Virus record (IMG/VR): IMGVR_UViG_3300048914_000208
Coordinates: 1 to 37,627 of that record
Reading direction: 5' to 3' (one strand)
DNA from: a virus
DNA length: 37,627 bases
The translations under genes and the position numbers were made by a program. This document shows positions 4,805 through 37,271 of the stretch, in pieces (position 1 is the first letter of the stretch; each line of letters opens with the position of its first letter). A model generated the notes under the pieces. That model did not search any database and was not told the origin of the DNA. It was given only the letters and a program-made list of their open reading frames with translations.

Positions 4805-5008
4805 ATCTAAATTAGGAAATTATTCACTTTTTAGATAATTTTTTGGTACACTATAACGTTTTCGTCTATCCGGGTTTCCTCAGTTCTTTTCCGGTGATCC
4901 ATTAACGTAACGCTCCAAAAATTTTACCGGTTAAGGTCCGGCTGTAATGTATTGGGGCTTTTTTCTATCTCCCTGATATGCAAATAACCAACCAAACACG
5001 ACTATAGT

Positions 5009-26263: not shown

Positions 26264-26310
26264 TTTGCCTTCTAAGCAGGCGGTCACAGGTTCGAATCCT
26301 GTCGTGATCA
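26264..26310. other. attP core: 3' portion of tRNA-Arg(TCT)
   Basis: This stretch is the 3' part of a tRNA: anticodon stem-loop with loop CTTCTAA (anticodon TCT at 26271-26273, stem 26264-26268 with 26276-26280), T-stem ACAGG/CCTGT around loop TTCGAAT, and acceptor strand CGTGATC-A. There is no 5' half upstream, so it is not a complete tRNA gene. It sits just before the integrase gene. On integration it would restore the 3' end of the host tRNA-Arg gene, the standard arrangement for attP at tRNA loci. Confidence 0.82.
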
Positions 26311-26416: not shown

Positions 26417-26466
26417 TGTACGTAAATTGTACGTGGGCTTTGTTTAAAAAATAGAATTGTACGTAA
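26417..26466. promoter_or_regulatory. Right integrase arm-type repeats, overlapping the int start
   Basis: TGTACGTAA at 26417 and TGTACGTGG at 26428 again start 11 bases apart, and a third TGTACGTAA at 26458-26466 runs into the int ATG. Overlap with the start region suggests that integrase could repress its own expression. Confidence 0.65.
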
Positions 26467-27683
26467 TGAAAATATCACTTAAAATTTATACAAGCGAACC
26501 TGAAACCAAACTTGGGTTTCCGCTCTATTTTGATATTTCGCACAAAGGTAAACGCCGCAAATTTAAAATTGCATCGGCACACCTGCACCAGTTTAATAAA
26601 GAAGATGGCACGGTAAACTCGCGGCATCCTGATTTTAATACCCTCTACCCTATTATCCAGGCCTACAAAATAAAGGCGCATGAAATTTTATTGCGGCGCC
26701 CTGAAGATGTGCAGGCGGTGTACAACGAACTTTTTAAAGCCGATGTATCGGCACCTAACACATTTTATGGGCTGTGCCGCGTGGTGATTAAAGATGTGGA
26801 AGATACGGCAAAAGAACACCGGGCCAAAAAAAATATTGAGGCATCTAATAAAGCTGAGGGCAATATAAAGGTATACACCACGGCCCTGGACTTATTAAAC
26901 GTGTTTGCGCCGGGCGTGAGCGTGCACGAAATTGATTTTAACCTGGTGCGAAAGTTTCGCCTGCACTGCGAAAAGAAGGGTAACAAACCGGCCACGGTGT
27001 CGCACTACCTGCGCACGCTCAGGGCACTTTACAACAAAGTGTGCAAAATGTATAAGCTGGATGATAAAAAACCCTTTGAGGGCGCCTTTTTGGGGCTGAA
27101 GGTTAAGAGTTATGCCTCGCGCAAAAAGAACGCCAGCAAAGAAACGGTGCGCCAAATTGAAGGGTTGTGCCATGCGGATAAGCGCATGCACCGATGGACT
27201 GATCTTTGGCTATTGATGTTCTACCTGGGCGGGCTGGATTTTATAGACCTGTATTACCTTAAAAATGCCCAGCTGCGCAAAGGCCGCGTGTGGTTTGACC
27301 GGGGCAAAGGCGGCAGCGGCGTGCCGGTTGATATTGCGGTGCACCCCAAAGCCCAGGCCATTATTGATAAATACCGCGTGGATGGCGAATATTTGTTTCC
27401 GTGGCCAAAAGACAGGGAGCGTTTTGTAATATTCCGGAATAATTTGTACCACCGCCTGGTGAAGATACAAAAGCGCCACGGCATAGAGCTGGAGGGCCGC
27501 GGCGGTAACCTGGGTGTGAAAATGGCCCGGCATACATTTGCCACCATTGGCAAGCACATGGGCTATGATGAAGATTTGCTGCGCGAAATTATGGGCCACG
27601 AACGCGATGACGTGGATAATAATTATAAAGACCGGTACCCGCAGCGGGTGCGCGATGAGGCGCTGTTTAAGATTATTGAGTAG
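26466..27683 (+). CDS. int: Tyrosine recombinase integrase
   Basis: A 405-aa site-specific recombinase for integration and excision. It has an N-terminal arm-binding region, a SAM-like core-binding domain (about residues 90-215, including 'GVSVHEIDFNLVRKFRLHCEKKGNKPATVSHYLRTLRALYNKV') and a catalytic domain with MARHTFATIGKHMG (Arg of box II), LREIMGHERDDV (His) and NNYKDRYP (nucleophile Tyr). The first catalytic Arg is not seen where expected: the segment reads FYLGGLDFIDLYYL where relatives have RG. ATG 26466 is chosen over TTG 26457. attP lies just upstream. The gene converges on the lipoprotein gene with an 11-bp overlap. Confidence 0.9.
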   Translation: MKISLKIYTSEPETKLGFPLYFDISHKGKRRKFKIASAHLHQFNKEDGTVNSRHPDFNTLYPIIQAYKIKAHEILLRRPEDVQAVYNELFKADVSAPNTFYGLCRVVIKDVEDTAKEHRAKKNIEASNKAEGNIKVYTTALDLLNVFAPGVSVHEIDFNLVRKFRLHCEKKGNKPATVSHYLRTLRALYNKVCKMYKLDDKKPFEGAFLGLKVKSYASRKKNASKETVRQIEGLCHADKRMHRWTDLWLLMFYLGGLDFIDLYYLKNAQLRKGRVWFDRGKGGSGVPVDIAVHPKAQAIIDKYRVDGEYLFPWPKDRERFVIFRNNLYHRLVKIQKRHGIELEGRGGNLGVKMARHTFATIGKHMGYDEDLLREIMGHERDDVDNNYKDRYPQRVRDEALFKIIE

Positions 27684-29617: not shown

Positions 29618-29931
29618 TGGAAGGCACGATATCCATACCTGATTTTATGGCGCACCTGCGCAGCGAAGGTCTTGTGATTGTAAGCGCGGCCGAGCTTGAA
29701 GCATCGCGCCTGCTGGCAGAGCGTGAGTCGCAGCGCAAGCTGATGCGCAAAAAGGCTATTGCCTTTGCCGAAGTTATTAAGGCGGGGTTTATACCGGGCA
29801 TTACCACTAACCAGGGCCTTGTGCACTGGGTAAACAGCGGCCGGATAAACCTGGGTGAAGCCTATAAAGAAACCAATGGCCGGTGGATGTTAATGACCAG
29901 TGCGCTGCGGCGCCTGGGTTATGCTGAATAA
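29617..29931 (+). CDS. Hypothetical early DNA-binding-like protein (104 aa)
   Basis: The C-terminal half 'FIPGITTNQGLVHWVNSGRINLGEAYKETNGRWMLMTSALRRLGYAE' has the order of a winged/excisionase-like or MerR-type helix-turn-helix (W...GRI......G...I...A..RLG). The N-terminal half is a Ser/Glu/Arg-rich helix. It could be an excisionase or early regulator. It ends two bases before the long structured noncoding region. Confidence 0.65.
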   Translation: MEGTISIPDFMAHLRSEGLVIVSAAELEASRLLAERESQRKLMRKKAIAFAEVIKAGFIPGITTNQGLVHWVNSGRINLGEAYKETNGRWMLMTSALRRLGYAE

Positions 29932-29933
29932 AT

Positions 29934-29989
29934 AAGCCTGCGGGTTGCGATTAACGCGGTTAAGGGGGCTTGACTTACCCGCGGGCTTT
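29934..29989 (+). terminator. Structured terminator-like stem after early genes
   Basis: AAGCCTGCGGG pairs with CCCGCGGGCTT (11 pairs, one G-U), enclosing a smaller perfect hairpin TTAAC-GCG-GTTAA. The 3' side runs into TTTAAAATATTTT. It may end the first early transcript or form the 5' domain of the RNA that follows. Confidence 0.5.
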
Positions 29990-30220
29990 AAAATATTTTA
30001 ATGCGAAGGTTACAGCTTTTCAGGGCCTGAAACGCAAAGGGTGTTCTGTACATAGTGTATCAGTTGGGGCTTCGCAGCGGTATAGTAAGGGCCGTACTCA
30101 TAACCCCTAAAGCACACCAGGGCCGGACAGCCCGGAAAGACGGGCAAAATTGAGGTAGAGACACTTTTGTTAAGTGAATCGGATTCATGCAGGTTCGAAT
30201 CCTGCCTATCTCACAACACA
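29990..30220 (+). ncRNA. Structured noncoding RNA with tRNA-like 3' domain
   Basis: A 230-bp stretch without a supported gene but with several pairings. TGCGAAG (30002-30008) pairs with CTTCGCA (30070-30076), and GGGG at 30066-30069, inside that loop, can pair with CCCC 30104-30107 (pseudoknot). Small hairpins lie at about 30115-30145. The 3' end folds like a tRNA: GAGGTAG (30152-30158) with CTATCTC (30206-30212), discriminator A 30213, and T-arm GCAGG-TTCGAAT-CCTGC (30189-30205). Between them lie CACTT/AAGTG and TGAATC/GATTCA stems. No normal D-arm exists. A terminator follows at 30262. Confidence 0.55.
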
Positions 30221-30261
30221 AAAAGCGGATTGGCTTACAAAGTGATTTTTTGATTGTCTTA

Positions 30262-30288
30262 GCCCCGCAGCTACGGCGGGGCATTTTT
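30262..30288 (+). terminator. Rho-independent terminator of the noncoding RNA
   Basis: GCCCCGC and GCGGGGC form a 7-bp GC-rich stem with a 7-base loop followed by A and five Ts. It lies 12 bases before the next gene, so that gene needs read-through or its own promoter. Confidence 0.8.
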
Positions 30289-30299
30289 AAACTAATACT

Positions 30300-30548
30300 A
30301 TGGATAAGGCAAAAGGAATATGTAATGTGGTTTCCGGGTTTGATGACGGTGCCGACCTGGTTTGGTCAGCATTCAAAGCACGGATAAGGGAATTTGCCGA
30401 AACCGAAATAATAATAGCATCACAGCACTGTAGTGTGGGCAGGCAGTATGAAAGGGTTGTAAATAAAAACTGCGGCCCCGGCCTGTGCCACCCTGAGCAT
30501 GTGCGGTCGCGCAAAGAGCGCTGCACCGGGTGCGGAAAAATTGAGTAA
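30300..30548 (+). CDS. Small Cys-rich hypothetical protein (82 aa)
   Basis: The C-terminal half holds Cys/His residues in the order KNCGPGLCHPEHV...ERCTGCGKIE, which is enough for one zinc site (C-x4-C-x-H-x10-C-x2-C style). The N-terminal half is helical. It follows the terminator by 12 bases. A nucleic-acid-binding zinc protein is possible; function unknown. Confidence 0.62.
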   Translation: MDKAKGICNVVSGFDDGADLVWSAFKARIREFAETEIIIASQHCSVGRQYERVVNKNCGPGLCHPEHVRSRKERCTGCGKIE

Positions 30549-31289: not shown

Positions 31290-32030
31290 ATGGATCCACT
31301 AAGTGAAAAAGAGGCCTTTGAGGCTGTTGAAAACGGTGTACACGCCCTTACAATATTGAGAGGCGATGCACAGGATGTTGTGTATAACCCGTATATAGAA
31401 TTAGAACTTTCGATTGCTGCGGCATTTGAATATCTTGAAAAAAGCGATGTTACGGATGCCGAAATAAAAGATTCTTATGTACTGTATTCATATGAAGGGT
31501 TGTTTTTAAATCTTGTGTTTTCTAACCGAAACCGTACTAATGATGAAAACAAGGGCGATTTTTTTAAAGGTATGCTGAAACTGCACCCGGAACTCGATAA
31601 ATGGCAGATCAATAAAGCAAAGGCGTATGATAACATGAGCCTTTCGCACTTCATAAAAATGAATCGCCACTTTTTTGAAGATAAAGACATTGCGATGAAG
31701 CTGGTGCACGAATTACAGGGTATCCGTATAAAAGTGGATAAGGAATTTGAGCACAGCGATAACAAGCGCGGCGATTATAAAGAAGTAATTGCCCAGCGCA
31801 TAACCGAAAGTAATATTCCTGCTGAATTTACATTGCTGCTGCCTGTATTTGTGGGCCAAAAACCTCAAAAAGTAAGGGTTGAAATAGAGGTTAACCCAAA
31901 ATCATTTGAGTGCAGCCTTATTTCGCCTGACCTGAAGGAAATCATTGACCTTGAAACCCGGGCGCTGATCGATACCCAGCTTGAAAAAATACGCGGCCTT
32001 TATCCTAAACTCCGCATTTATCAAAAATAA
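31290..32030 (+). CDS. DUF2303-like early protein
   Basis: A 246-aa protein with the pattern of DUF2303-type phage proteins: 'AKAYDNMSLSHFIKMNRHFFEDKDIAMKLVHELQGIRIKV' (helical, with an F...N..FF segment), a charged turn, then beta strands 'IPAEFTLLLPVFVGQKPQKVRVEIEVN'. In other phages this family sits among recombination/replication genes; its function is not known to me. The match is by eye and partial. Confidence 0.65.
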   Translation: MDPLSEKEAFEAVENGVHALTILRGDAQDVVYNPYIELELSIAAAFEYLEKSDVTDAEIKDSYVLYSYEGLFLNLVFSNRNRTNDENKGDFFKGMLKLHPELDKWQINKAKAYDNMSLSHFIKMNRHFFEDKDIAMKLVHELQGIRIKVDKEFEHSDNKRGDYKEVIAQRITESNIPAEFTLLLPVFVGQKPQKVRVEIEVNPKSFECSLISPDLKEIIDLETRALIDTQLEKIRGLYPKLRIYQK

Positions 32031-32035
32031 CATAT

Positions 32036-32125
32036 AAAGCCCTGGTGCCTGCAACGGTCGAAAAATTAAGGAACGCGCTGCGGCGGTTGTGATACAATAT
32101 CACGGGTTCGGGCACAGGGCTTTTT
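32036..32125 (+). ncRNA. Structured RNA element with terminator-like outer stem
   Basis: AAAGCCCT (32036-32043) pairs with AGGGCTTT (32116-32123), and GTGCC (32045-32049) with GGCAC (32111-32115), leaving a single bulged G. Inside are CAAC (32052-32055) opposite GTTG (32086-32089) and a perfect hairpin GTGATA-CAA-TATCAC (32089-32103). The 3' strand ends in five Ts. The whole fills the gap between two genes. It could be a small RNA or a leader-type terminator/antiterminator. Confidence 0.55.
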
Positions 32126-35708: not shown

Positions 35709-37271
35709 ATGGATCAGAATAAAAAACGTTACGCTCAACAACAACCTGACCACATGAAGGTGGTGCAACTGCACCAGGGCATGGTTATGCCGCAGGCTAT
35801 TGATATTGAGCAGGCGGTGCTGGGTGTGCTGATGATTGACATGAAGTGCCAGGATGAGTGCCTTATGATACTGAAATCGCCTGATGTGTTTTACACGGAA
35901 CAGCACCAGGTAATATTTGAGGCTATACAGGCGCTGTATGATGCGGCAGAGCAAATTGACATGCTCACGGTTCCTGCAAAGCTGCGCACGATGGGTAAGC
36001 TGGAGGTGGCGGGCGGTGATTATTATATTATAACGCTCACGCAAAAGATTTCGAGCGGTGCGCATATTGAGTATTATTCGCGCATCCTGCTGCAAATGTA
36101 TATCAAGCGCCAAATTATTAAAAACGCTTCTGCTTTTGCTGGTCAGGCTTACCTTGAGACGGTTGACAGTCTTGAACTGCTTCAGCAATGGAGTGACAGC
36201 CTTGATAATATTACGGCAATTACTATGACCGGCGGTAGTGAAATATCATATGCTAAAGCGTTAGATATAGTGGAAAAGCGCATTGAGCAACTCAGCCATA
36301 AGCAAGATGAAGCGCTGACCGGTATTGATACGGGGTTTAGGAAAATAAACGAGCAAACGGCGGGTTATCAGCCCGGTGAATTGATTATTGTGGCTGCGCG
36401 TCCTGGTATGGGTAAAAGCGCCTACATGCTGCGCCCGGTACTCCGCAATGCTTCAAAAGGTATTGCGGTGGGTATTATATCGCTTGAAATGAGCGTGTAT
36501 GAAATTGCAAGCCGTACCGTGGCGATTGATACAAACTTCCACCTGAAACAGATCACGAAGGAAGGTTTTACAAAGCCTGAGTACTTCACTACGTTTTCAA
36601 AGCATAAGCACCGCATGAATGCATACCCTATCTTGATGGATGACAGCGCAAAGAGTGATATCCGGGATATAGTGGCAACGCTGCGCCTGTGGAAGCGTAA
36701 GCATAACATTGGTTTTGCTGTGATTGATTACCTGCAGTTGATAACCGACAGTACAAAAGGCGGCAACCGTGAGCAGGAAGTGGCAAGTATTAGCCGTAAG
36801 CTTAAGATGTTGTGCAAGGAATTAAGTATACCGATGATGGTGTTATCGCAGCTTAGCCGGGCGGTTGAAACCCGTGGATCAAGTAAAAGGCCTTTGTTGT
36901 CTGACCTGCGTGAGAGTGGTGCGATTGAACAGGATGCAAACATTGTTACATTTCTTTATCGCCCTGAATATTACAAGATCGAACCGGATGATGAGTTGCT
37001 TTCGATTGGTGCCGATAGTGAGGCGATCTTTGCTAAATACCGTGGAGGTGCGCCCTTTGAGGCTGGCCTGAAATGGATAGGCGACCATACAAAGTATATT
37101 GATCCTGATGAGTATTTGCAGCAACAGGAAGCGCTGCAACAACAGCAACAGCAACATGCTGAACCCTGGAAGGAAAAGCCGCTGCCTGCTACCAGCCCGA
37201 ACGATGCGTTTGGCCCGCGGCCTGGCAATAGTGTACAAGATGTGAGTGATAAAGATGATTTAGCATTTTAA
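35709..37271 (+). CDS. dnaB: Replicative DNA helicase (DnaB)
   Basis: A 520-aa hexameric helicase for the phage fork. The N-terminal DnaB domain includes 'DIEQAVLGVLMIDMKCQDECLMIL' (about residues 32-55). The RecA-like domain has Walker A AARPGMGKSAY (about 228-238), 'GIISLEMS', 'FAVIDYLQLI' (Walker B), 'SRKLKMLCKELSIPMMVLSQLSR' and 'SDLRESGAIEQDANIVTFLYRPEYY'. A Gln-rich tail (EALQQQQQQ) and a Pro-rich C-terminus follow. It completes the replication module with the initiator just upstream. Confidence 0.95.
   Translation: MDQNKKRYAQQQPDHMKVVQLHQGMVMPQAIDIEQAVLGVLMIDMKCQDECLMILKSPDVFYTEQHQVIFEAIQALYDAAEQIDMLTVPAKLRTMGKLEVAGGDYYIITLTQKISSGAHIEYYSRILLQMYIKRQIIKNASAFAGQAYLETVDSLELLQQWSDSLDNITAITMTGGSEISYAKALDIVEKRIEQLSHKQDEALTGIDTGFRKINEQTAGYQPGELIIVAARPGMGKSAYMLRPVLRNASKGIAVGIISLEMSVYEIASRTVAIDTNFHLKQITKEGFTKPEYFTTFSKHKHRMNAYPILMDDSAKSDIRDIVATLRLWKRKHNIGFAVIDYLQLITDSTKGGNREQEVASISRKLKMLCKELSIPMMVLSQLSRAVETRGSSKRPLLSDLRESGAIEQDANIVTFLYRPEYYKIEPDDELLSIGADSEAIFAKYRGGAPFEAGLKWIGDHTKYIDPDEYLQQQEALQQQQQQHAEPWKEKPLPATSPNDAFGPRPGNSVQDVSDKDDLAF

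Follow-up and report, generated by a model that had tools for sequence, protein, structure and literature searches.

Substrates of RNase P need an acceptor and a T-arm, whereas an anticodon is not required. The 3′ end newly formed by its cut would be protected by a strong hairpin located some nucleotides 5′ of the cut site. For MALAT1/mascRNA, RNase P cuts before a tRNA-like element of ∼61 nt and thereby frees a small RNA, and the new 3′ end is protected by structure immediately 5′ of it; this system is eukaryotic, and only its mechanism, not its ancestry, is comparable with what is described here. Mitochondrial tRNA punctuation likewise employs tRNA folds between genes as RNase P/Z signals; the punctuating tRNAs, however, decode, which the elements considered below cannot. 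Bacterial tmRNA (ssrA) contains an anticodon-less tRNA-like domain, with RNA inserted at the place of the anticodon arm. Among phages, T4 synthesizes RNA C (rnaC, species 1 RNA), an RNA first described decades ago. It is transcribed, was confirmed by Northern analysis, and has no known role (PMC9697503, PMC3014915). T4 rnaC ends in the T-arm CCGGGTTCGAATCCCGG. Alignment with its homologues from Kosakonia, SonariX, N2, and EnC15 showed that the 5′ end, the 3′ hairpin, and the T-arm are kept with compensatory changes; the middle of the EnC15 homologue is unrelated, and the broken pairs in the alignment fall mostly into this replaced part. The homologue in Enterobacter phage SonariX (L402, 254–348) is annotated as tRNA-Met.

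The locus studied here lies within a 37,627-nt viral sequence (positions 1–37,627 of IMG/VR record IMGVR_UViG_3300048914_000208; this whole stretch is referred to as the window) from a temperate tailed phage of Bacteroidota-type bacteria, encoding an integrase (26457–27683) and DnaB (35709–37271). The region in question, 29934–30288, is located between the stop of the 29614–29931 gene and the start of the gene at 30300. No supported gene was expected there, and none emerged, the overlapping ORFs being a 74-aa frame on the minus strand and a 66-aa frame entering the next gene. As a whole, the 357-nt region folds better than shuffled sequences (z −2.5). The features relevant to its interpretation are the following:

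26264–26310, plus strand: 3′ half of a tRNA-Arg(TCT) gene, probable attP; T-arm at 26286, beside the integrase gene
29934–29988, plus strand: 12-bp helix (29934–29945/29977–29988) with two inner hairpins; fold of −30.2 kcal/mol for 29930–30000
30002–30125, plus strand: upstream RNA, from blastn and pattern scan
30126–30145, plus strand: GACA hairpin (GACA, stem GCCCG/CGGGC, loop GAAAGA; sequence GACAGCCCGGAAAGACGGGC)
30146–30151, plus strand: 6-nt spacer AAAATT ahead of the 5′ end of the tRNA-like element; predicted RNase P cut at 30151/30152
30152–30213, plus strand: anticodon-less tRNA-like element, from the cmscan match to RF00005 (26 bits) and the fold
30262–30290, plus strand: intrinsic terminator, GC stem 30262–30282 followed by ATTTTT
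31290–32030, plus strand: DUF2303 (YfdQ-like) gene, from tblastn to the L002 DUF2303 protein, the annotation in BS-TP2, and 22 loci

On balance, and with moderate confidence, the region is regarded as a small RNA array located between early genes of the phage; in its core (30126–30213), a leader hairpin precedes an anticodon-less tRNA-like element.

The tRNA-like element comprises 62 nt, with the acceptor at 30152–30158/30206–30212, the T-arm at 30189–30205, and a discriminator A at 30213. Its acceptor strands, GAGGTAG/CTATCTC, pair at 7 of 7 positions (one G-T), the T-stem GCAGG/CCTGC closes the loop TTCGAAT, and A73 is followed by CAA, that is, CCA is not encoded. The tRNA-like end with a 7-bp acceptor and a standard T-arm, as proposed in the initial annotation, was recovered both by cmscan (30152–30213) and by folding. 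The match to RF00005 (26.0 bits; E 0.0039 for all Rfam and 601 bases) is below the gathering cut-off of 29, and ARAGORN called no tRNA at this position. When 30150–30216 was folded alone, a cloverleaf resulted, with a 4-bp D-like arm (GACA/TGTT) without the GG pair and, where the anticodon loop should be, a 6-bp arm closed by the 3-nt loop CGG. The sole alternative with a 7-nt anticodon loop, CACT-TTTGTTA-AGTG, would put a pyrimidine at position 37 and do away with the D-arm. With neither an anticodon arm bearing a 7-nt loop nor the GG of the D-loop, and with a score below the Rfam gathering cut-off, the element is indeed not an ordinary tRNA. Such a score might also be obtained by chance resemblance to a tRNA; given an E value of 0.004 across all Rfam families, and considering that an exact leader hairpin, independent of this match, stands at the spacing typical of the class described below, this explanation is extremely improbable.

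The possibility that the element is the remnant of an older attachment site had been raised as well, and phage att sites often hold tRNA 3′ halves. The conventional candidate is found elsewhere in the window: immediately 5′ of the integrase gene, where attP is usually located, there is a tRNA-Arg(TCT) 3′ half. For this reason, the tRNA-like element, 2.5 kb away from the end of the integrase gene and not adjacent to it, is unlikely to be such a remnant. Also, its 5′ acceptor strand is present locally and paired, and a leader hairpin precedes it, both of which an attachment site would leave unexplained, and similar elements occur at a fixed place after DUF2303 genes (see below). Taken together, an origin as an attachment site is very improbable.

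Upstream of the core, the 12-bp helix begins immediately past the stop codon that ends the 29614–29931 gene; it is slightly longer than the 11-bp stem seen previously and encloses two inner hairpins instead of one. At the other end, the GC terminator was verified, with seven pairs (all G-C) at 30262–30282 followed by ATTTTT; it is the strongest terminator-like site of the region, in which the number of such sites does not exceed that of shuffled sequences. Thus, the proposal of a structured noncoding RNA with a tRNA-like end and a terminator stands as far as the tRNA-like element, the terminator, the 5′ helix, and the overall folding are concerned, but not with respect to the pseudoknot. For the latter, i.e., a long-range helix (30002–30008/30070–30076) and the pairing of 30066–30069 with 30104–30107, the complementary strings are present, with nothing beyond complementarity; by our own estimate, ∼0.4 matches of 7 bp are to be expected by chance within ∼115 nt. 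The sole relative of the upstream RNA was found in phage L004 (30058–30125 versus 4879–4943 of L004; 70% identity over 70 nt by blastn), in a different gene slot. There, the pseudoknot pairing shows no covariation because GGGG/CCCC is kept unchanged, and the first helix is at best a different, shifted one; the pseudoknot is, therefore, unproven. The L004 counterpart (4810–4990) lacks a tRNA-like element, and its hairpin has diverged. A pattern scan for the upstream RNA returned four matches (L373–L376), of which the assessment covers the first three: L375 is the L004 contig itself, and L373 and L374 were rejected as chance matches, both being located inside ORFs. A Theta/HDV-like ribozyme at 30002–30125 was dismissed because the order of the strands, as judged by eye, does not fit, and Rfam, searched at gathering and permissive thresholds, contained no family for the upstream RNA or the GACA hairpin.

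Within the region, conservation is widest for the GACA hairpin, which ends 6 nt 5′ of the tRNA-like element and had escaped the initial annotation. While blast linked three phages, annotated or deposited, by the T-arm/acceptor region only, the exact 20-mer GACAGCCCGGAAAGACGGGC was found in MT840030 and in Bacteroides phage BS-TP2, in both cases just 5′ of their own tRNA-like elements. The pattern ACAGCCNGGAAAGACNGGC had at least 120 matches listed in viral contigs, and a slightly longer version at least 120 in genomes of Proteobacteria, Bacteroidota, Clostridia, Spirochaetes, Melainabacteria, and others. Among the matches listed, the unconstrained N/N position was nearly always complementary, and at GACA-N4-GGAAAGAC-N4 sites outside the GCC stems used for searching, 17 of 28 paired at 4 of 4 positions, compared with 3.4 when partners were permuted. 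As judged from these comparisons, the stem of the GACA hairpin covaries. A tRNA or tRNA-like element followed within 60 nt downstream of 37 of the 246 GACA hairpins listed versus 4 of 2,117 control positions, nearly always at a distance of 3–8 nt and never on the opposite strand. Since the units downstream also include ordinary tRNAs (L274, L319, L323, L328, and L407), the hairpin is not specific to tRNA-like elements. Most of the GACA hairpins listed have no adjacent tRNA and are followed by other sequence, often a gene start. In L408 and L409, a tRNA, the hairpin, and a tRNA-like element are arranged in series, with a second GACA hairpin thereafter in L408, and in phage contig L058 (124–979), a tmRNA (110 bits) and an ordinary tRNA are encoded just 3′ of the hairpin. 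Structured-looking sequences directly 5′ of the GACA hairpin, differing between phage groups, recur (L025, L030, L033, L044, and the Pseudomonas prophage loci L006, L013, and L100). Neither a boxB/put antiterminator nor a CsrA site was accepted as its identity, the loop being different or independent support being absent.

Scanning phages with a T-arm pattern yielded, among the matches listed, many elements without an ARAGORN call. From these, 39 unique elements were anchored on the T-arm and the D-arm motif TGGCGRA only, that is, without preselecting the acceptor. Among these matches, the acceptor paired at 7 of 7 positions in 31 of the 39 (35 distinct sequences), compared with a mean of 3.6 pairing at 6 or more of 7 positions in the permuted null; an anticodon arm was present in 1 of 39, A73 in 30 of 39, and CCA was encoded in 2 of 39. 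Lengths ranged mostly from ∼70 to ∼250 nt. Long forms carry a Leu-type D-arm (TGGCGRA..GGTAGACGC), which is absent in the short forms L381, L386 (second element), L396, and L378. In L130 and L163, a second T-arm within the cargo, as the RNA between the conserved ends is called here, suggests nested tRNA-like elements. A 7-bp hairpin ending 3–8 nt upstream was observed for 18 of 87 elements not selected for a hairpin, compared with 4.4% of control positions, 4 of 87 at 15–20 nt upstream, and 21 of 235 ordinary tRNAs. Canonical phage tRNA genes have the acceptor and T-arm in common with the class, often occur in arrays, and are in some cases preceded by a GACA hairpin at 3–8 nt, but their anticodon arm is functional. 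The class differs from tmRNA in that neither a resume codon and tag frame has been shown nor are there 5′ and 3′ halves ∼350 nt apart; the Rfam tmRNA model did not match the window. With T4 RNA C, it has in common that it is a small phage RNA with a tRNA T-arm at the 3′ end, no usable anticodon, conserved ends, and a replaceable middle. Searches of open-access papers, by sequence and by concept, retrieved nothing on the GACA hairpin or on anticodon-less phage tRNA-like elements, which apparently constitute a widespread, undescribed group.

Using the protein encoded at 31290–32030 of the window alone, 22 loci with a DUF2303 relative were found, whereas the 29069 protein led to no relatives. A tRNA-like element is located just after the DUF2303 gene in at least 16 of the 22 loci (by script or eye); two more are degenerate, and three have none. 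The element of L378 (4750–4810) is a minimal 44-nt form in which only 13 nt separate the acceptor from the T-arm, and the element of L395 has a variant T-loop. One pair, L387 and L392, is particularly clean: identity amounts to 89% in the gene, 91% in the leader, 92% in the acceptor and D-arm, 96% in the T-arm and acceptor, and 90% downstream, while that of the cargo is 58%, compared with 56% for random sequences. At the level of sequence, the same scaffold in the same slot thus holds unrelated cargo, and cargo is exchanged, as demonstrated mainly by this pair. Diverged copies of both cargos exist (90% and 87% identity). For L387/L399, 51 consensus pairs comprised 6 compensatory, 5 one-sided, and 0 broken ones, with the acceptor, D, T, and cargo helices included; L392/L400 had neither compensatory nor broken pairs, and the L390 group was mixed (3 compensatory and 5 broken). 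Cargo as such folds barely better than shuffles (mean z −0.66), and its closing helix barely exceeds the null (mean 5.2 versus 4.6 bp). As antisense RNA, the cargo found no support, two cargos searched in the phage collection having matched only their own diverged copies.

That unrelated cargo resides in the same scaffold and slot, and is conserved between diverged phages (87–90%), in one case with compensatory changes, would be expected if the tRNA-like end only stabilized a trans-acting small RNA that pairs with or binds host or phage targets. In the window, this would be the upstream RNA at 30002–30125, which is kept in L004 in another slot. For such a carrier, however, the window insert is nearly absent, cargo folding is only slightly above shuffles, and no target came to light for the two cargos that were compared with the phage collection, which makes this role unlikely. 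Alternatively, the mature RNA, with CCA added, might act as a decoy by binding EF-Tu, an aminoacyl-tRNA synthetase, or a tRNA-targeting defence nuclease, which would be titrated or misdirected. The identity of tRNA-Leu resides mainly in A73 and A14; aminoacylation does not need the anticodon arm (PMC9976931). The longer members keep A73 (30 of 39 among the matches listed) and, like tRNA-Leu, have A14 in their D-arm, so that their leucylation is possible, and a quickly exchanged insert would be in keeping with an arms race. Yet the window copy lacks the Leu-type D-arm, and a decoy explains neither the leader hairpin nor the fixed intergenic place; it is similarly doubtful.

The window copy itself deviates from its counterparts in several respects. 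Rather than directly downstream of the DUF2303 gene, it is found 1.1 kb upstream of that gene; the slot that holds the tRNA-like element in related phages is occupied in the window by a large stem (AAAGCCCTG...CAGGGCTTTTT, 32035–32125). It lacks the conserved D-arm of the class (TGGCGGAATTGGTAGACGC) and is, without the Leu-type D-arm, a minimal form of it. It nevertheless obeys the leader-hairpin rule of the tRNA-like elements of DUF2303 phages (30126–30145, gap of 6). Compared with T4 RNA C, which has 139 nt, lies within a tRNA cluster, and has a partly paired acceptor, the window element is shorter (62 nt), stands alone, and is preceded by a GACA hairpin; both end in a T-arm and acceptor, lack an anticodon arm, and are intergenic and on the sense strand. 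Judging by layout, the tRNA-like elements of DUF2303 phages and T4 RNA C are similar, descent being a separate matter. No relative of the window's own element was found, and the nearest phage, L004, has no tRNA-like element. Both facts would agree with a tRNA gene in decay, its anticodon and D-arms already gone, as would the short members L396 and L398, still called tRNA-Asn by ARAGORN. Against such decay speak the fully paired acceptor and T-stem, the correctly spaced leader hairpin, and the size of a class that misses the same part and is under compensatory selection, and we rate it as less probable still than a decoy or carrier.

The reading preferred here, held with moderate confidence, is that of a module disguised as a tRNA, which would be cut out by RNase P to separate and stabilize RNAs. 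Transcription would continue as far as the terminator (∼30290). The acceptor/T-arm would be recognized by host RNase P, which would cut at 30151/30152; RNase Z or exonucleases would trim the 3′ end, and CCA would be added, releasing a stable 62-nt tRNA-like RNA. The upstream RNA would be left with a strong hairpin and a 6-nt tail at its 3′ end, protected much as by a terminator hairpin. The tRNA fold would accordingly be a signal for processing and stability, not for decoding, and in the longer relatives also a scaffold for exchangeable RNA cargo. Processing, stability, and function in the infected cell we infer from these features. The earlier suggestion of a tRNA mimic processed by RNase P/Z gains from the comparison, as a leader hairpin 3–8 nt ahead of an anticodon-less tRNA-like element recurs in many phages, and retains its predicted processing step. 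On the other side, because no relatives were found and L004 has no tRNA-like element, the window copy could be decaying or dispensable, and because the terminator lies downstream, it separates no two messages.

Somewhat more tentatively, it is proposed that phages across many phyla share an RNA architecture, namely a leader hairpin (GACA or other) 3–8 nt before an anticodon-less tRNA-like scaffold with exchangeable cargo. The tRNA enzymes of the host would process it; T4 RNA C would be the sole experimentally detected member and the window element a minimal form. Gene finders miss this class, as ARAGORN needs an anticodon and no Rfam family covers it. Exchangeable cargo, as seen in the sequence comparisons, would suit regulatory or anti-host RNAs. 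In unrelated phages, the tRNA-like ends, the leader hairpin, and the gene slot are fixed while the middle is swapped, which makes this a testable class.
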